Of a stretch of 64,000 bases of DNA, positions 50,862 through 58,133 are shown piece after piece. The translations under genes and the position numbers were made by a program. The notes under the pieces were generated by a model. The model saw nothing but the letters and a program-made list of their open reading frames with translations, made no database searches and was not told the DNA's origin. Positions within the stretch are counted from its first letter, which is position 1, and each line of letters begins with the position of its first letter. Origin of the DNA: Actinomyces trachealis (GTDB taxonomy: Bacteria > Actinomycetota > Actinomycetes > Actinomycetales > Actinomycetaceae); contig NZ_CP065027.1 in assembly GCF_015711475.1 (NCBI RefSeq), forward strand, positions 868,001-932,000. The letters run 5' to 3'.

Positions 50862-51102
50862 TCCACCCAGCCCCGCCCTCCCCGGCGGGCGCGTGACCTA
50901 AGGAAGGACCTAAACGGAAAAGGTCGGTATGAGCCGACAGGTTAAGCATGCCCAAACGTACCCGAACACCATCAAACAAGTAAACAATGCATTAAACAAC
51001 CCGATCGCCCCCCAACAGTGAATTAGGGTCAAGAGAACGTTCCCGCCGAAGGCCTACTGTGATATATCCCACATCGAAGCATGGTGTGAGTCATGTAACA
51101 TG
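50862..51102. other. Gene-free spacer between IS remnant and RiPP cluster
   Basis: No reading frame with coding character is seen. G+C falls sharply here compared with the flanking core genome, and short AT-rich runs appear (AAACAAGTAAACAATGCATT). The right end of the IS1380 remnant probably lies inside, but no inverted repeat was found. Confidence 0.5.
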
Positions 51103-51141
51103 GCGTTGTTCTTGAAGAAAATAGCGTTGTTCCTGAAGAAA
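51103..51141 (+). promoter_or_regulatory. Tandem direct repeat upstream of the RiPP precursor
   Basis: GCGTTGTTCTTGAAGAAA (51103-51120) is repeated as GCGTTGTTCCTGAAGAAA (51124-51141), one mismatch, 21 bp apart, i.e. two helical turns. It ends 54 bp before the precursor start. A weak promoter may follow (TTGGGG at 51150, TATTCA at 51171). A regulator site is inferred. Confidence 0.5.
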
Positions 51142-51195
51142 TGAGTTCCTTGGGGACGATTGTCTGAACCTATTCATCGATCCAGGAGGGAAGTC

Positions 51196-51324
51196 GTGGC
51201 GACTAGCACTCAACCGCCAGGTTTCAGTATCGTGACGTACGGCGATACGCAGAAGTATTTCGTGCCCACAGCTGCACGATGTAGCTCGTCTTCAAGCACT
51301 TGTTGCATTGCGTGCTGGAGCTGA
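51196..51324 (+). CDS. Plantazolicin-like azole RiPP precursor peptide
   Basis: A 42-residue peptide too short for usual annotation. GTG 51196 follows a strong AGGAGGG site. The leader ends YGDTQKYFVPTAA and the core is RCSSSSSTCCIACWS (residues 28-42), with 11 of 15 residues Cys, Ser or Thr that can be cyclised. The leader end and Ala-Ala/Arg-Cys junction match plantazolicin (core RCTCTTIISSSSTF, from memory), which keeps GxGQxxFxPMAAR before the core. Here Ser precedes the Cys block, and Trp is near the C-terminus. Cleavage is expected between Ala27 and Arg28. Downstream genes encode C, D and B enzymes. Confidence 0.9.
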   Translation: MATSTQPPGFSIVTYGDTQKYFVPTAARCSSSSSTCCIACWS

Positions 51325-51349
51325 TCGGAAGCTAATTCGGAGCCGACGC

Positions 51350-51409
51350 GTGACAGACCAAGCATGGGCTTCCTGAATCTCGCTGGCGTGGTCCATGCTT
51401 GGCCGTCAC
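51350..51409 (+). terminator. Hairpin between precursor and modification genes
   Basis: GTGACAGACCAAGCATGG (51350-51367) pairs with CCATGCTTGGCCGTCAC (51393-51409), with one small bulge, 25 bases after the precursor stop. No T tract follows. A partial terminator here would keep precursor mRNA in excess, as in streptolysin S operons. Confidence 0.65.
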
Positions 51410-51500
51410 CCGCTCGTCGATAATGGTCAGAAACGCCGGACTATGTCGGGCGCGGGAAGCGCTCCGTAGGTATGCGCGAACAAGTTAGGCCTGCATAGCA

Positions 51501-51887
51501 ATGGTTAACGGATACTTCGGGAAGAGAAGACTCCTGGGAGATTCGATTACTGCTGACATAGTTGGAGAGAACATTGCTGTTCTCGACCTTGTAGGTCTTA
51601 GACGGCAAAACGCGATTGACTTTGTCGATGCTGTAACCGAAATGCCCCGTCCCGGGAGGGTTGCCGTCCTGACGGTTCATGATATGACCCGCCGGGGGGG
51701 GCGGAATGACGCAGTATTACGACGAATTGGAAGGAATTATAAGGGCGCGCTGTCAACAAGAAGAAGTTGCGCTTGCAAGTTACTCTGCGCCAGCGGTAAT
51801 CGAGGAGCTCGGCCCTTACCTTGCGAGTTTCGGAGAGGTGTACGGGAGTTACCTGGAAAGGCCCATGCCTTGGGTTACGGCACGTGA
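51501..51887 (+). CDS. Uncertain open frame, possible 5' part of the next gene
   Basis: From ATG 51501 the frame reads GYFGKRRLLGDSITADIVGE and continues plausibly to TVHDMTRRGG at an eight-G run (51694-51701), after which the composition looks non-coding and it overlaps the next frame. A one-base slip in the G run would join residues 1-66 to the next protein. No clear ribosome site precedes 51501. It could be a frameshifted N-terminus or chance. Confidence 0.3.
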   Translation: MVNGYFGKRRLLGDSITADIVGENIAVLDLVGLRRQNAIDFVDAVTEMPRPGRVAVLTVHDMTRRGGRNDAVLRRIGRNYKGALSTRRSCACKLLCASGNRGARPLPCEFRRGVRELPGKAHALGYGT

Positions 51888-52149
51888 AGTGACTCGTGCT
51901 ATATGCGGTATAGATAATCTCGAAGCTTCCGAACGAAAGACGATTTTCGTCACCTCTAGGCAGACCGTCGAGGAGGCGCTGAACGGACTGGCAGGGCGTT
52001 GCGATAGGAAATGCAGAAGATACCGCTATCGGCATATCGCTCCAAACATTCTTGCAGAAGTCTATCATCAGAAAGGATTTGACGGAGACGACAGTCAGAT
52101 TGCGGACCAGTTGCCCTATTACCAATACTATGTAAGCCAGTTAGGCTGA
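51706..52149 (+). CDS. LAP cluster protein of unknown function
   Basis: A 147-residue soluble protein starting MTQYYDELEGIIRARCQQEE behind GGGGCGGA. No domain is recognised. It is Tyr- and Arg-rich, with PYLASFGEVYGSYLERPMPW and ending LPYYQYYVSQLG. It lies between precursor and cyclodehydratase genes, the place of pznJ in the plantazolicin cluster (order pznA-J-C-D-B, from memory), whose role is also unclear. Homology to PznJ is only suggested by position. Confidence 0.55.
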   Translation: MTQYYDELEGIIRARCQQEEVALASYSAPAVIEELGPYLASFGEVYGSYLERPMPWVTAREVTRAICGIDNLEASERKTIFVTSRQTVEEALNGLAGRCDRKCRRYRYRHIAPNILAEVYHQKGFDGDDSQIADQLPYYQYYVSQLG

Positions 52150-52197: not shown

Positions 52198-52386
52198 ATG
52201 AAGTCTAGCACGAGATCGGGCCTTCTGGTAGGGCTCGTGTGCGCCGGAATCGGCGCCATGGGGTACTATGCCATTAATCCCGATCTGGGTAAAGCGCTGT
52301 TCGTGGGTGCGATAGGATTCGCGATTAGCGCAACGATCTTCGTCGTCATGAGCTTCATGGGAAGAGATCATCACAATGAAGACTGA
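52198..52386 (+). CDS. Small two-helix membrane protein in LAP cluster
   Basis: A 62-residue protein with two membrane helices: about 9-26 (LLVGLVCAGIGAMGYYAI) and 33-52 (LFVGAIGFAISATIFVVMSF), and an acidic-His tail GRDHHNED. ATG 52198 is six bases after CGAGGAG. It overlaps the next gene by 11 bp, so it is part of the modification operon. It may be an immunity or membrane-anchoring factor; family unknown. Confidence 0.65.
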   Translation: MKSSTRSGLLVGLVCAGIGAMGYYAINPDLGKALFVGAIGFAISATIFVVMSFMGRDHHNED

Positions 52387-52723
52387 CGATACACTCCTAG
52401 AGGTGACTAGATTCCACTGGGATCCATTTACTATCGTCGAAGTGGCTGACCATGAGATGCGGCTTCGCAATGGATCTGCTATCACCGTACTGAAAGAATC
52501 CGAACGATCGACCGTCCTTCGGTCAATGGCTGAACGCGGATGGCTTGACGCGCCGGAATTCGTTGTCGCACTTGAGACGTTGAGCGAAAGAGGAGAGATA
52601 CGTCCTCGAAGGGTTGAAGCAAAACGGAGCGATTCTGCAGGTGCCTTCGGCCGATTTGCCCGCAGTTGTAAGCGAGTTCTACGCCAGGAGCGGCGGTCAG
52701 GTGGACGCGCAGGAAATTGCTAG
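52376..52723 (+). CDS. RiPP recognition element-like N-terminal part of the cyclodehydratase C protein
   Basis: Residues 12-75 look like the leader-binding winged-helix (RRE) domain that begins TOMM C proteins: strands FTIVEVADHEMRLRNGSAI then helices ERSTVLRSMAERGWLDAPEF and VVALETLSERGEI. After about residue 80 the sequence turns Arg/Ser-rich, overlapping 110 bp of the following C-protein gene in another frame. Either the C protein is frameshifted near 52580-52620 (one extra base) or the RRE is a separate polypeptide. Total length of both parts, about 335 residues, equals a normal C protein. Confidence 0.6.
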   Translation: MKTDDTLLEVTRFHWDPFTIVEVADHEMRLRNGSAITVLKESERSTVLRSMAERGWLDAPEFVVALETLSERGEIRPRRVEAKRSDSAGAFGRFARSCKRVLRQERRSGGRAGNC

Positions 52724-53378
52724 CCGTCTTGAATACGCGGTCGTTCGTGTGGCGGGTGACCACGTGACGTTCAACGAGGCATTTCTTGAGGCGTTGGATG
52801 TCTTGGGCATCGGAGCGAAAATGCTGGAAGTGCTGGACAGCGATTCTGTACAGAATTTCGGGGATCGTGATGTCGTCGTCGCTGCTTACCGGGACTTGTT
52901 CTCTGACGTTGCAAGTCGGCATAATGAGTTGCTAATCCGGTCAGGGTTCCCTGGGAGGGTTCTCTTCGTAGGGGGTTTTGACGGGCGCCAATCGGTCGTT
53001 GGCCCTTGGGGACTTGCGCACAAGTCGGCATGCCTGGCCTGCTGGAACTTGCGCAGGAGAGCTAACCTCATCGACATTCCCAGTACGGTTAGACCGGGGC
53101 GCGCCTCTGAATCATCTGTAACTCCCTATTACGGCACTCGTAGCGCTCTTCAGAGTTGTGAACGGCTTGTCGCATCCTACGCCGCCGACATAGTTGCTGA
53201 GTATACCTTGCTAGAAGAACTGGCGCCTTCAGCGCAGCCCGGATCGTACCGAAGCATTGGCTTCTCGCGGAATGGGATCGAGATCGAGCGCCACCATGTC
53301 CTCAAGGTCCCGCGGTGCGCGGTGTGTGGGACAGCACAGAGCATGGGCTTTCCGCAGGTGTGGCATCATGGTCGATAA
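52614..53378 (+). CDS. TOMM cyclodehydratase C protein (E1-like scaffold), N-terminus separate
   Basis: A 254-residue part of the ThiF/E1-like partner that presents the leader to the YcaO enzyme. A zinc site is formed by Cys140 and Cys143 (KSACLACWNLRRRAN) and Cys235 and Cys238 (VPRCAVCGT), both hallmark pairs of TOMM C proteins. RVLFVGGFDGRQSVVGPWGL precedes the first pair. The frame opens at TTG 52614, with upstream stop at 52581 and poor ribosome spacing, suggesting it is the continuation of the upstream RRE frame. It overlaps the YcaO start by 11 bp. Confidence 0.8.
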   Translation: MKQNGAILQVPSADLPAVVSEFYARSGGQVDAQEIASRLEYAVVRVAGDHVTFNEAFLEALDVLGIGAKMLEVLDSDSVQNFGDRDVVVAAYRDLFSDVASRHNELLIRSGFPGRVLFVGGFDGRQSVVGPWGLAHKSACLACWNLRRRANLIDIPSTVRPGRASESSVTPYYGTRSALQSCERLVASYAADIVAEYTLLEELAPSAQPGSYRSIGFSRNGIEIERHHVLKVPRCAVCGTAQSMGFPQVWHHGR

Positions 53379-54720
53379 CGCCAGAGGATGGACATCGCTC
53401 GAGATGGCGAACCGGGTCTACAGTAAGTTCGTGTCGCCTCTCACCGGGATTGTGAACTCGCTGTACAACCAATTGCATGAGACGGACGACATTCCGGGGT
53501 TTGCTGTCGGTGCCAGGGCCTGTGATGGAGACGAATTAGTGGGTGCTCCTGTCAACGAACTAAACGGCGGGGGCGCGACAAATTACCTGCACGCCAAGGT
53601 AGCAGCCATCGGTGAGACCATCGAGCGTTATTGCGGGGCTTACGCTCCAAGCGATTTGTTCACTGTGTGCGACGGAGCTTCGCATGGCGTGGAATTCATT
53701 TATGACTGGCACCTCTTTCACGATCGCCAATACTCCGAACCTGACTTTCCGTTCGCTCGGATCCGGCCAACTACGGAACTTCTGTGGACGCGAGCTCAAG
53801 ATCTTCTGGACGGGGGGCGCGTGGCGGTTCCGGCTGACCTAGTGTACTTGAGGCCTCTGGGGCCACCAGAGTCAACTGTCGCATACGCGACCAGCAATGG
53901 TTTGGCCTGTGGGCTCTCTGAGTTCGAGGCGCTTTCATCGGCTATCTTTGAGCTGTTCGAGAGGCACGCATTCGTACTTACCTGGCACGCCTTCTTGCAG
54001 CCGCCAAGAATTGACGCTGAGCGCCTGTTCCGCGATTCTGATTTCTGGACGAGGCATGTGCTCCTTACGGGGCTCGAAGTCCGTTTGTTTGCAATGTCCG
54101 ATCTTCTGGGCGTCCCGTCCGTGCTGGCCGTAGTGCTGAATAGGCGAACGACGTCCGCTCCGATCTCGTTCGGCGCCGCTTCAGCTACCTCAATTCGGCG
54201 AGCGGCTGAGAAGGCAGTGGTCGAGGCATTTCAGACGCGCGTGTGGATCAAGGCAGAGCAGCGGCTAGGAAATTCCATCCCGTTTAGCTCGGATTGGAAC
54301 GATACGATTCGAGGGTTCGACGACCACGTAAGGCTTTACTCATCTACGAATGTTGAGCCGCTGTGGAGTGCCATTGATTTCCTGACGTGCGTGGACCGAT
54401 TCGACGAGGATCCGAGGCGATACGACTTTCCTCAGGGAATGTCGCCGGATTCCGTTGTGGCGGAGCTATTGTCGATCGCCAGGAGGAATGGCCTCGAGAT
54501 GTACGAGGTGGACGTGACAACTCCGGACGTGCGTGACGAGGGGGTGTCCGTCGTGAAGGTGCTCTCACCCCAGCTTGCGCAGCTAGACGCATCGTATGTC
54601 GGACGTTTCCTGGGCTGCCCGAGTCTATACGGCCCGCTTCCCTGGTCGGGCGGCCTGCAGCGCGATTTTGATGATCTCAATCCTGTACCCACCCTTTCCC
54701 ATGAGAGGAATTGGAGATGA
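53368..54720 (+). CDS. YcaO-domain azoline-forming cyclodehydratase (D protein)
   Basis: A 450-residue ATP-dependent enzyme that cyclises Cys, Ser and Thr of the precursor to azolines by backbone phosphorylation. YcaO marks: start YSKFVSPLTGIVNSLYNQ, ATP/Mg residues in AIGETIERYCGAYAP (about 80-95), GLSEFEALSSAIFELFERHA (about 185-205), and a Pro-rich C-terminus NPVPTLSHERNWR, resembling the conserved PxP end. ATG 53368 overlaps the C-protein stop; a start at 53257 would add 37 residues read out of the C gene. It works with the C protein just upstream. Confidence 0.92.
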   Translation: MVDNARGWTSLEMANRVYSKFVSPLTGIVNSLYNQLHETDDIPGFAVGARACDGDELVGAPVNELNGGGATNYLHAKVAAIGETIERYCGAYAPSDLFTVCDGASHGVEFIYDWHLFHDRQYSEPDFPFARIRPTTELLWTRAQDLLDGGRVAVPADLVYLRPLGPPESTVAYATSNGLACGLSEFEALSSAIFELFERHAFVLTWHAFLQPPRIDAERLFRDSDFWTRHVLLTGLEVRLFAMSDLLGVPSVLAVVLNRRTTSAPISFGAASATSIRRAAEKAVVEAFQTRVWIKAEQRLGNSIPFSSDWNDTIRGFDDHVRLYSSTNVEPLWSAIDFLTCVDRFDEDPRRYDFPQGMSPDSVVAELLSIARRNGLEMYEVDVTTPDVRDEGVSVVKVLSPQLAQLDASYVGRFLGCPSLYGPLPWSGGLQRDFDDLNPVPTLSHERNWR

Positions 54721-55529
54721 TTGTGGACGGCTCAGAAATTCATGGTGCGAACCTGACGAAGATCGTGTATGGGGACGAACTGCCTGACCCTCTAGATTGT
54801 TCTGAGGCGTGGTTCGAGGCCTCAAAGGTGCATAGGGAGTCCATGGGTTGGGACAACCCAGGCGTACAGGTGCTTCGCAATTCGCGCGAGTTGCAGGTAA
54901 TCTCCTCTCGTGGCGCAAAGAGCTACGACAATCTTCCCAGGGTGGACCTCGGCCCGCCGAAGAGACCTGAGATGGCGCTCGAGCAGTGCCTTCTTCAAAG
55001 AAGGTCTGCAGACGAATTCGCGGGAGAGATGATGGTGGAGCAGCTGGCAGGCCTTCTTCGTTTCGGCGCGGGGACGACTGACACTGAAGGACCAAGTCAT
55101 CTTCGCACTGTTCCGTCTGCGGGTGCCTTGCATCCCTCAGACTTATACTTCTACGCACGGAATGTGGATGGGCTTGAACCGGGGATTTATTACTACCTGC
55201 CGCAGGAGAACAGGGTTGTCCTGGTCGCAGGGCGGCCGACCCGGTCAGTCTCTAGGAACTTCTTCAACGCCGCTGGAACTTCCGATGGCGCAGTACTCGT
55301 ACTGATCTGCACGTCATTCTGGCGGACACGCTTCAAATACGGCCATCGGGGTATGAGGTTTGCTCTGATAGAGGCGGGCCATCTCGCACAGAATTTGCTG
55401 CTGCTAGCGTCTGCGTACAGGCTCCCCGCGCGCGCCCTGGGTGGCTTCGTAGACGACGAGGTGAATGGCTATACGCCGCATCAGGACGGGGTGGATACGG
55501 CGGTGCTGTACGCGCTCGCTATAGGATGA
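54717..55529 (+). CDS. SagB-type FMN dehydrogenase (B protein)
   Basis: A 270-residue nitroreductase-fold enzyme that oxidises azolines to azoles. Characteristic parts are EQCLLQRRSADEFAGEMMVEQL, the FMN-binding LRTVPSAGALHPSDLYFYAR and EPGIYYYLPQENRVVLV, and the C-terminal AGHLAQNLLLLASAYRLPAR. ATG 54717 overlaps the YcaO stop (ATGA). The set B, C, D is complete except for the possible break in C. In plantazolicin nine azoles and one azoline are made this way; the number here is not predictable exactly. Confidence 0.9.
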   Translation: MIVDGSEIHGANLTKIVYGDELPDPLDCSEAWFEASKVHRESMGWDNPGVQVLRNSRELQVISSRGAKSYDNLPRVDLGPPKRPEMALEQCLLQRRSADEFAGEMMVEQLAGLLRFGAGTTDTEGPSHLRTVPSAGALHPSDLYFYARNVDGLEPGIYYYLPQENRVVLVAGRPTRSVSRNFFNAAGTSDGAVLVLICTSFWRTRFKYGHRGMRFALIEAGHLAQNLLLLASAYRLPARALGGFVDDEVNGYTPHQDGVDTAVLYALAIG

Positions 55530-55563: not shown

Positions 55564-56457
55564 GTGAGGCAGGATTCTTTGGCAGTCCGCGTAGATGGCG
55601 TATCGAAAAGGTACAGAGAGGTTGAAGCCGTCATGGACGTCTCCTTTGAGGCGGCGCGGGGCGACGTTGTCGGCGTCTTGGGACGTAACGGCGCTGGAAA
55701 GTCCACCCTTGTGTCGATGCTCGCGGGCCTGACCAGCCCAACGGCGGGAAGGATCTCTATCTTTGGAGAGGATCCCAGGCGAGCTAGTGTGCGTCTCAAG
55801 ATGGGCGTAGTCCCCCAGGAGGTCACACTGCCGGGTAACTTGACAGGGGATGAATTCGGGGAGTTCGTGTCCGCACACTACCCAGCTAGTTGCACTGCGT
55901 ATGGAGACGTGTTTGAGCGCTGGGGATTAGCAGATTTCAGTCACATGCGGCTCAGAAGACTGTCAGGAGGGCAGCGGCGGAGGATTGCCGTGGGCTTGGC
56001 ATTTGTCGGCGACCCGGATGTCGTGATCCTGGACGAGCCAACCACGGGCCTCGATCCGGAGTCGCGGCGGACCGTGTGGCGGGGCATACGTGAGGAAGCC
56101 AACTCCGGCGTGACGGTCATGATTACGTCGCATTACATGGATGAGATTGAGTGCCTGAGTGATCGAATCCTGTTGATGGAGAGGGGTGAACTCATAGAGG
56201 ATCGCCCGGTGGGTGAATTCCTGGAGGCAAGGAAGCGGGTCACGGTTTCCTTCGAGGGGTCTGCCTCCGAGCGGCAGGTTCGTGAGTTGGCTGATCCAGA
56301 GGCGGAGGTTTCTATGCAGGACGGGCGTTTTAAGGTTGTCACTGGGCGTTCGGATGCGTTCGTACGGGGGCTTGTGAGCTCCGGCATGGAGTTCGAGGCG
56401 CTCCGCGTCGAACGATCAAGCCTGGAGCAGGCCTTGCTGGAGAGGCTGGCGGACTAA
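55564..56457 (+). CDS. ABC transporter ATP-binding protein of LAP cluster
   Basis: A 297-residue ATPase with Walker A GRNGAGKST, signature LSGGQRRRIAVGLAF, Walker B VVILDEPTTGLDP and H-loop ITSHYMDE. The C-terminal 80 residues resemble the regulatory tail of drug/peptide ABC-2 ATPases. AGGAGG lies six bases before GTG 55564. With the permease that starts on its stop codon it should export the modified peptide or give self-protection, like PznG/PznH. Confidence 0.88.
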   Translation: MRQDSLAVRVDGVSKRYREVEAVMDVSFEAARGDVVGVLGRNGAGKSTLVSMLAGLTSPTAGRISIFGEDPRRASVRLKMGVVPQEVTLPGNLTGDEFGEFVSAHYPASCTAYGDVFERWGLADFSHMRLRRLSGGQRRRIAVGLAFVGDPDVVILDEPTTGLDPESRRTVWRGIREEANSGVTVMITSHYMDEIECLSDRILLMERGELIEDRPVGEFLEARKRVTVSFEGSASERQVRELADPEAEVSMQDGRFKVVTGRSDAFVRGLVSSGMEFEALRVERSSLEQALLERLAD

Positions 56458-57227
56458 TGGTGAATGCGAACGACGAGCTCGGAGACGTTTCGCGGTGGCG
56501 ATTGGTTGGGGCTCATCTCAGACTCGTGGAGATCGAGACCTTTCGTGATCCTGCCGCGCTGGTTGGCAACGTGATCATCCCATTTGTTTGCTTTCTGTTC
56601 TTTGTGTTGCCGAATCGAGACGTGGTCAACTCTGCCTCAGGTGCGACCGTTGCAACCTTGCAGCTGACGAGCATGCTTGGTTTTTCTACGTGCCTTTTCG
56701 GGTATTCGGTGTCCGTGGCCCAGGATCGTGAATCCGGATTTGGCATGTACTTGAAGACACTGCCAGTGGGGTCCTTCCCGCGATTCCTCGCTGTCGCGGT
56801 CGGTGCGCTGACTGTCACGGCGCTTGGGGTCGTGCTGTTGTGGGCGGCTTCTTTAATCGCAACGGATGCTGAGCTGAGTTGGGATTTGCTCGCGGGGTTC
56901 GGCGCCTTACTGCTTACCATGGTGACGTGGAGTCTTTTCGGCGCGGCGCTGGGGCAGGTTGTTAACGTGAAGACGGTGATCACGGTTGCTCAGTTGGCGT
57001 TCCTCGCGCTCGCGTTCGCAGGCGGTATGCTTGTGTCGCCCGACTACCTTCCAGACGGATTGGACATGGTTAGCCGTTACCTCCCGTCGCGCGCTTCTCG
57101 TGACTTGGTTTGCGGGCTTGGTAGTGGGGAGGGCGTATCTGCGTTCGTCGTGGCGGTGCACGCTTTTTGGACGGTCCTCTTCGGGGTTGTGAGCGTAATG
57201 TCCGCAAAGGTTTTCATGCGCCGATAG
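56457..57227 (+). CDS. ABC-2 type permease of LAP cluster
   Basis: A 256-residue membrane protein with about six helices: around 31-48, 65-85, 110-135, 145-170, 175-195 and 230-250. The first cytoplasmic part is short (GAHLRLVEIETFRDPAALVG), as in ABC-2 membrane proteins. The ATG overlaps the ATPase stop by one base, indicating coupling. It forms the exporter with the upstream ATPase. Confidence 0.87.
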   Translation: MVNANDELGDVSRWRLVGAHLRLVEIETFRDPAALVGNVIIPFVCFLFFVLPNRDVVNSASGATVATLQLTSMLGFSTCLFGYSVSVAQDRESGFGMYLKTLPVGSFPRFLAVAVGALTVTALGVVLLWAASLIATDAELSWDLLAGFGALLLTMVTWSLFGAALGQVVNVKTVITVAQLAFLALAFAGGMLVSPDYLPDGLDMVSRYLPSRASRDLVCGLGSGEGVSAFVVAVHAFWTVLFGVVSVMSAKVFMRR

Positions 57228-57233
57228 AGAGGG

Positions 57234-57617
57234 ATGGGTTGGTTAGTGGGTAAAGAGGGTTTCAGTGCGCTGGGAGCGTTCGGTGCGGTGATGACCGACG
57301 TCATGGCGTACGACTATTTCACTGCTCGCAGATACGCTCGTCATGTGGTCGACGAGTTAGGTCTTGATGGTTATGAGAAAGGTCGTTTGGTTGATGCCGG
57401 ATGCCAGTTCGGGGCCTTGGGTGAGGCCTTGAGAGGGGGTCGTTGAAGTATGTGGGTGTCGATATCGATGACCACGCGCTTCAGGTGGCGCAGAGGCGGT
57501 TGCCGAATGCTGTGTTCTTCCGGTGTGACATTCAGGATTGGCGGGTGGTGTCGCTGGGTGTGTACGATGTTGTCGTTTGCAGCCTAGTGCTGGGCCTGCT
57601 GAAGGATGTCGAGAATT
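57234..57617 (+). pseudogene. SAM-dependent methyltransferase, frameshifted and truncated
   Basis: The first frame gives YDYFTARRYARHVVDELGLD and motif I LVDAGCQFGALGEALRGG, stopping at 57446. The next frame continues as KYVGVDIDDHALQVAQRRLP and FRCDIQDW, then YDVVVCSLVLGLLKDVENL, after which homology stops. A five-G run at 57434 is near the shift. About half of the expected fold is missing. The plantazolicin cluster has PznL, which dimethylates the N-terminal Arg at the end of its operon. This gene fits that role but seems inactive; sequence identity to PznL was not tested. Confidence 0.7.
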
Positions 57618-58133
57618 TGTCCGTTCTCAAGCAGGTAAACCTTGTTGCTGATGTCGATTCAGACTCGGCAGTTGAGTAATTTGGAACTTGACGTCAGGGA
57701 GCAGAGTAAAGGGCTTAGCGGAGGTGAGCGGCAGCGGTTGGCGATCGCCAGGTCCCTCCTTGCCGGAACTTCCGTACTCCTTTTGGATGAGGCTACCTCC
57801 AACCTAGACGGTCGAAACGAATCGATGATTCAAGATGCGATTGCTGTTCCGTCGAACGGCCATCGTACGACACTTTTGATCGCACATAGGCTATCGACAG
57901 TCATTTCAGCTGACCGAATTATTGTTATGGATCGAGGTCAGATCGTCGCGCAGGGGAGCCATCGTGAGCTTATGGAAACCAGTCCGTTGTACCGGGAGCT
58001 GGCGGAGCGCCAGTTGCTTATCGATGGGAGCCTGGCGGCATCGGTCAAACCCTCGATTGGCCACGAGGTAGAAGCTGTAGGCAAGAGCAGACTTCCGGCA
58101 TGTGAGGTAGATCGTTTCGGGAACGGTGAATGA
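57618..58133 (+). pseudogene. C-terminal remnant of an ABC exporter ATPase
   Basis: Residues QSKGLSGGERQRLAIARSLL, VLLLDEATSNLDGRNE and LLIAHRLSTVISADRI are the signature, Walker B and H-loop of an exporter-type ATPase. Walker A and the membrane domain are absent. The join to the methyltransferase remnant is near 57618; VLKQVNLVADVDSDSAVE in the earlier frame may be the preceding helical part, with another shift near 57675. A deletion or recombination has fused two partial genes. It cannot transport on its own. Confidence 0.72.

Follow-up and report, generated by a model that had tools for sequence, protein, structure and literature searches.

The 42-residue open reading frame (ORF) at 51196-51324 of the window, by which we mean the whole 64,000-nucleotide stretch of DNA analysed here, very probably encodes the precursor of a plantazolicin-superfamily cluster that was acquired horizontally and is now decaying. 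Its RCSSSSSTCCxxC core very probably marks a conserved subgroup that stands apart from classical plantazolicin. The features concerned lie in the following order:

51097-51138, + strand: tandem 21-bp direct repeat upstream of the precursor, two copies, 86% alike
51196-51324, + strand: precursor gene A, GTG start, 42 residues, reading VATSTQPPGFSIVTYGDTQKYFVPTAARCSSSSSTCCIACWS plus stop
51340-51420, + strand: RNA hairpin between A and J (-36.8 kcal/mol, z -3.1)
51444-52149, + strand: J homologue in two frames (J of locus L032 matches 51444-51719 and 51706-52143)
52198-52386, + strand: small membrane-like protein, ~62 aa, conserved in L032 (53% identity) and L042
52376-53378, + strand: C protein of the TIGR03882 leader-binding family, in two frames (segments 52406-52597 and 52527-53372)
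53368-54720, + strand: D, YcaO cyclodehydratase, open but without the PHPFP C-terminus (PF02624, E 1.9e-57; TIGR03604)
54711-55529, + strand: B, SagB-type FMN dehydrogenase, intact (TIGR03605, 106 bits; 68% identity to L032 over all 271 residues)
55564-56457, + strand: ABC transporter ATPase, intact
56457-57227, + strand: ABC-2 permease, intact (70% identity to L032)
57255-57607, + strand: remains of a methyltransferase gene, split over two frames and corresponding to residues 9-127 of the L032 protein (244 aa)

It is confirmed that 51196-51324 is a real ORF, and the original prediction had its coordinates, strand and length exactly right. The strong ribosome site to which that prediction pointed is an AGGAGG ahead of the GTG start (upstream sequence CCAGGAGGGAAGTC); translation from an in-frame TTG further upstream, at 51160, would yield 54 aa, and the start at 51196 is favoured because of this ribosome site and the starts of the homologues. 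The leader VATSTQPPGFSIVTYGDTQKYFVPTAA comprises residues 1-27 and the core RCSSSSSTCCIACWS residues 28-42, the translation ending in AARCSSSSSTCCIACWS. Superfamily precursors are of about 45 aa (here 42) with a leader ending in FxPxAA, as is the case here; the plantazolicin-like character predicted for this end is borne out by G16, F22, P24 and A27, invariant in 15 precursors. The Ala-Ala/Arg-Cys junction is likewise present, and by analogy we infer cleavage before Arg28. The plantazolicin model TIGR04218 matches the precursor with 23.4 bits (E 4.1e-5), short of its curated cut-off of 45, compared with 87.5 bits for L050 and 34.1 bits for the homologue P0002. The 2.53-Mb genome of the window holds a single copy. 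Among the 702 window ORFs that are 20-110 aa long, three close with a Cys/Ser/Thr-rich stretch (at least 9 Cys/Ser/Thr plus at least 2 Cys within 16 residues) and only 51196-51324 is near the cluster; no better precursor was seen among these ORFs, in the cluster or elsewhere in the window. Leader, core and neighbourhood together support the ORF as a putative precursor in the plantazolicin superfamily of linear azole peptides.

A first homologue search against 5.8 billion proteins returned P0002-P0004 (E 1.3e-13 to 1.1e-8), all three of which keep RCSSSSSTCCxxC; the close homologues are named Actinomyces. P0002 and P0004 are recorded in databases as hypothetical proteins, so the earlier claim that gene finders pass over the ORF does not extend to its relatives. 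The precursor is found in 3 of 49 genomes of the genus (G000, G017 and G037) and in the same three of 213 genomes sampled from the family; the ORF is thus conserved in related clusters, a point on which the original prediction had staked itself. Comparing the window with G017, core codons 28-40 comprise 5 identical, 8 synonymous and 0 non-synonymous, whereas leader codons 1-27 comprise 7, 5 and 15; against G037 the figures are 5, 7 and 1 in the core and 6, 7 and 14 in the leader. Between G037 and G017 they are 12, 0 and 1 in the core and 16, 7 and 4 in the leader, with the same core result for L042 against L032, and this core pattern of one non-synonymous and no synonymous codon would be a point against the reading of a conserved core.

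A profile search with 11 precursors yielded 57 proteins, 31 with RCSSSSSTCCxxC, 5 with RCSSSSTCTCCC and 21 others, the count of identical cores being inflated because candidates were drawn via common 5-residue words, many from the core, which favours identical cores. All 31 have F(E/A/Q)P(T/S)AAR ahead of the core, the remaining leader being variable. Named holders include uncultured Actinomyces, Nesterenkonia aerolata, a Desertimonas MAG and a Solirubrobacteraceae MAG, and they span three classes of Actinomycetota: Actinomycetes, Acidimicrobiia and Thermoleophilia. Genomes sampled evenly at class (394), phylum (396) and order (396) level yielded no further copies of the core. The core is widespread across Actinomycetota yet thinly distributed, and rare in random genome samples. 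The original description of a new core therefore stands as regards its layout, which differs from the classical one, but not as regards its singularity, given the 31 sharers. The string SSSSSTCC is absent from the literature text searched, supplements excluded; this is a weak negative, the classical plantazolicin core strings being equally absent among the matches listed. Taken together, the comparisons support RCSSSSSTCCxxC as the apparent hallmark of an unnamed subgroup that is wider than the single window ORF.

Weak matches in two genomes of the genus sample (G002, G028) were read and are non-precursors as far as seen, as are those in G279, G288, G290, G876, G977 and six more genomes of the wider samples; the matches in G450 and G508 of the wider sample are genuine FEPVAA-type precursors. 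Against the plasmid collection the precursor P0121 had no match, and YcaO matched three records, all at <60% identity.

The resemblance to plantazolicin of Bacillus (L050, B. safensis, precursor end FEPMAARCTCTTIISSSSTF, which agrees with the classical sequence given in the original prediction) lies in the FxPxAA leader end and the Arg-Cys start, and at the level of the family in the C-D-B enzymes, the ABC pair, the CAAX protein and the BamL-type methyltransferase. Classical plantazolicin is a polyazole bearing dimethyl-Arg that acts selectively on bacilli. The cores differ. The classical core is outlined as Arg, 5 cyclisable, 2 nonpolar and 5-6 cyclisable residues (PMC4603692), plantazolicin itself having Ile-Ile between two blocks of 5. 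The window core departs from this scheme: its layout R-CSSSSSTCC-IA-C-WS has 9 adjacent cyclisable residues, a 2-residue Ile-Ala spacer, 1 Cys and then Trp-Ser, and the Ser run stands ahead of Thr-Cys-Cys, the reverse of the plantazolicin order, just as had been predicted. The RCSSSSTCTCCC(T/S)G precursors (Allosalinactinospora L051; P0079-P0081, P0085) and the FEPVAA(A/Y/G)..CCCC precursors (Nocardiopsis, Crossiella, Streptomonospora) share the leader end, the YcaO family and the order of Ser run first and Cys last, but their Cys tail is longer than that of the window and many lack the Arg start. Two Nocardiopsis loci (L049:5550-5950 and L063:5689-6010) have tandem FEPVAA/FEPVVA precursor pairs with differing cores. 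Streptolysin S and microcin B17 arise by like chemistry of C, D and B proteins, with another leader, core and D group. For the plantazolicin-group cluster of Nesterenkonia, P0121 of N. aerolata has exactly RCSSSSSTCCTGC; PMC4603692 reports this cluster without a methyltransferase.

Five RCSSSSSTCCxxC precursors match a plantazolicin-type YcaO in the exact size of the longest contig, which is an indirect link (P0115/P0013, 16506 bp; P0108/P0014, 11920 bp; P0105/P0023, 47426 bp; P0127/P0034, 11205 bp; P0100/P0037, 10172 bp); P0105 and P0023 both bear the name Desertimonas. On a midpoint-rooted tree of 46 YcaO proteins, with branching inside the large group left unresolved and no known precursor for many rows, the RCSSSSSTCC core occurs in three places: the Actinomyces clade (where P0008 is labelled after its relative, G017, by extrapolation), an 11-row clade with P0013, P0014, P0023 and P0037, and P0034. 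The classical rows form one clade (100/100) that joins the Actinomyces clade at 89/92. This topology would fit an ancestral RCSSSSSTCC core. In an open-ended YcaO survey, 28 of 79 loci, from named genomes, were scanned for small ORFs. Six had classical cores (L043, L044, L046, L050, L052, L067), six had other FxPxxA cores (L045, L047, L048, L049, L051, L063) and three had KCCC cores (L053, L055, L056). None of the 28 had the exact RCSSSSSTCC core, an absence that is weak because the filter missed at least one real precursor (L048). At L055:6508-6648, in Actinomyces bovis, an azole-type precursor AANAAAKCCCSSKFCCCTSKLCCCCCW lies beside a related YcaO, with similar ones in L053 and L056.

As in the superfamily at large, a plantazolicin-group YcaO, a TIGR03882-type C protein and a SagB dehydrogenase adjoin the precursor, C being split and the end of D changed. 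The L032 locus of G017 has the order A-J-TM-C-D-B-ABC-permease-MT-CAAX; its C homologue (358 aa) is intact, as is its J, without a Pfam or NCBIfam match. The small membrane-like protein, 92% identical between L032 and L042, belongs to no Pfam family. The intact L032 methyltransferase has BamL as top PDB match (E 2e-6), closely followed by the generic methyltransferase 3cgg (E 3e-6); the window genome has only the remnant, with no second copy. Directly after this remnant, 57642-58133 encodes the C-terminal fragment of an MsbA-type ABC exporter and is the end of a second decayed unit.

Judged by its reading frames the window cluster is decayed, which the original prediction had overlooked. The PHPFP end that D lacks would matter for catalysis. 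In all eight aligned relatives of D this end reads HPFP or HPYP; of 70 D matches, 66 end in HPxP. An intact copy of D exists, since P0005, the D of a near relative, differs from the window D by two substitutions and the end alone, and keeps PHPFP. The CAAX protein had no match in the window genome, in a search run without a positive control, while tblastn does find it in L042. Elsewhere D is spread over three frames (G017), or C, D and most of J are missing and the methyltransferase match extends only to residue 115 (G037, whose classical cluster also has a stop within D); the breaks differ between genomes, so the losses look independent. With J, C, D and the methyltransferase damaged and CAAX not found, a finished product from this strain is unlikely and the pathway in it is, from its genes, most likely dead. 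Between 51100 and 57700 the G+C content is 56.5% as against 65.4% for the window, and third-position G+C is 0.65-0.69 in D, B and the ABC genes as against 0.71-0.91 in the preceding ORFs; this contrast and a DDE transposase just upstream point to horizontal acquisition of the cluster.

It could be argued that the cluster still functions, its breaks being sequencing errors or programmed frameshifts and its missing methyltransferase dispensable. The intact precursor, B and ABC genes would fit this, as would the PHPFP end of the near-identical P0005 and the reported Nesterenkonia cluster without a methyltransferase. Yet four genes are hit within ~6 kb, in contrast to the preceding 50 kb, which is tiled by 36 long ORFs. 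Base-calling errors explain neither a methyltransferase that ends at residue 127 of 244 nor the CAAX protein that was not found, and the relatives have other, independent breaks. We therefore consider a working cluster quite improbable; sequencing error as the sole cause of the lesions is rejected in view of the half-length methyltransferase, the CAAX result and the pattern of breaks.

As for the precursor itself, a chance Cys/Ser-rich frame might be suspected in a short ORF with a GTG start and no database name, but the core is conserved through synonymous changes and its place beside the cluster is fixed, so chance is ruled out for practical purposes. UniRef calls the Nesterenkonia relative a thiazolylpeptide-type bacteriocin, from which one might expect a thiopeptide-type precursor with a macrocycle formed from dehydrated Ser; this is very unlikely and was set aside, as the neighbouring genes scanned showed neither a dehydratase nor a cycloaddition enzyme, and the precursors match the plantazolicin model. 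A little more credible than a still-working cluster, though unlikely too, is a plain plantazolicin, which would differ from the classical product in sequence and not in activity. The leader end and Arg-Cys start, the C-D-B-ABC-MT-CAAX parts and the sister position of the Actinomyces YcaO clade are all in its favour; against it stand the 9-2-1 layout in place of 5-2-5/6 and the presence in G037 of classical and RCSSSSSTCCxxC precursors at separate loci, which argues for two products. The classical precursor of G037 lies at L034:12879-13091 (RCTTTTIISSSSCF), and the YcaO match there contains a TAG.

Under the favoured reading of a distinct subgroup, the ORF, its homology and conservation, the gene content and the lesions are what is observed here; the chemical steps, the cleavage site, export and activity are carried over from the known plantazolicin pathway. 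In an intact cluster the C protein would hold the leader (GFSIVTYG...FxPTAA), YcaO-D would use ATP to cyclise Cys, Ser and Thr to azolines, and SagB-B would oxidise these to azoles. The cut before Arg28 would fall to a protease, for which the CAAX-type protein is a possible candidate, and dimethylation of the Arg to a BamL-like enzyme; the ABC pair would serve either for export of the peptide or for protection of the cell. Rings could possibly form from the nine adjacent cyclisable residues plus Cys40, giving a chain headed by Arg in which as many as nine azol(in)es in a row are followed by a spacer of two residues, a single thiazole and a short tail; the nine residues would allow an unbroken azole tract longer than plantazolicin's five. 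By analogy the product would probably be a narrow-spectrum antibacterial.

If the assignment is true, plantazolicin-type peptides have a second conserved scaffold, which occurs in Actinomycetes, Acidimicrobiia and Thermoleophilia. The curated plantazolicin model of NCBI, applied at its cut-off, would then fail to detect this scaffold, whose database entries are mostly hypothetical proteins. A core that stays invariant while its leaders diverge leads one to expect a single conserved target. We speculate, tentatively and with more doubt than belief, that RCSSSSSTCCxxC is an ancient polyazole scaffold of Actinomycetota, locked to its target, bearing as many as nine azoles in a row and kept constant on unrelated leaders and with YcaO proteins ~40% identical, that classical plantazolicin is a derived side branch, and that Actinomyces strains repeatedly lose production while keeping precursor and transporter. 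The three damaged loci in Actinomyces offer a natural example of antibiotic production lost repeatedly with precursor and transporter retained, and an intact precursor is no proof of a producing strain.

A scan of 50900-51600 found no sigma-70-like promoter, and the 21-bp tandem repeat is possibly, by our inference, the site of a regulator. The hairpin between A and J recurs at the matching place in L032 (z -2.6), L042 being unremarkable there (z -0.9), and may be a processing or attenuation site.
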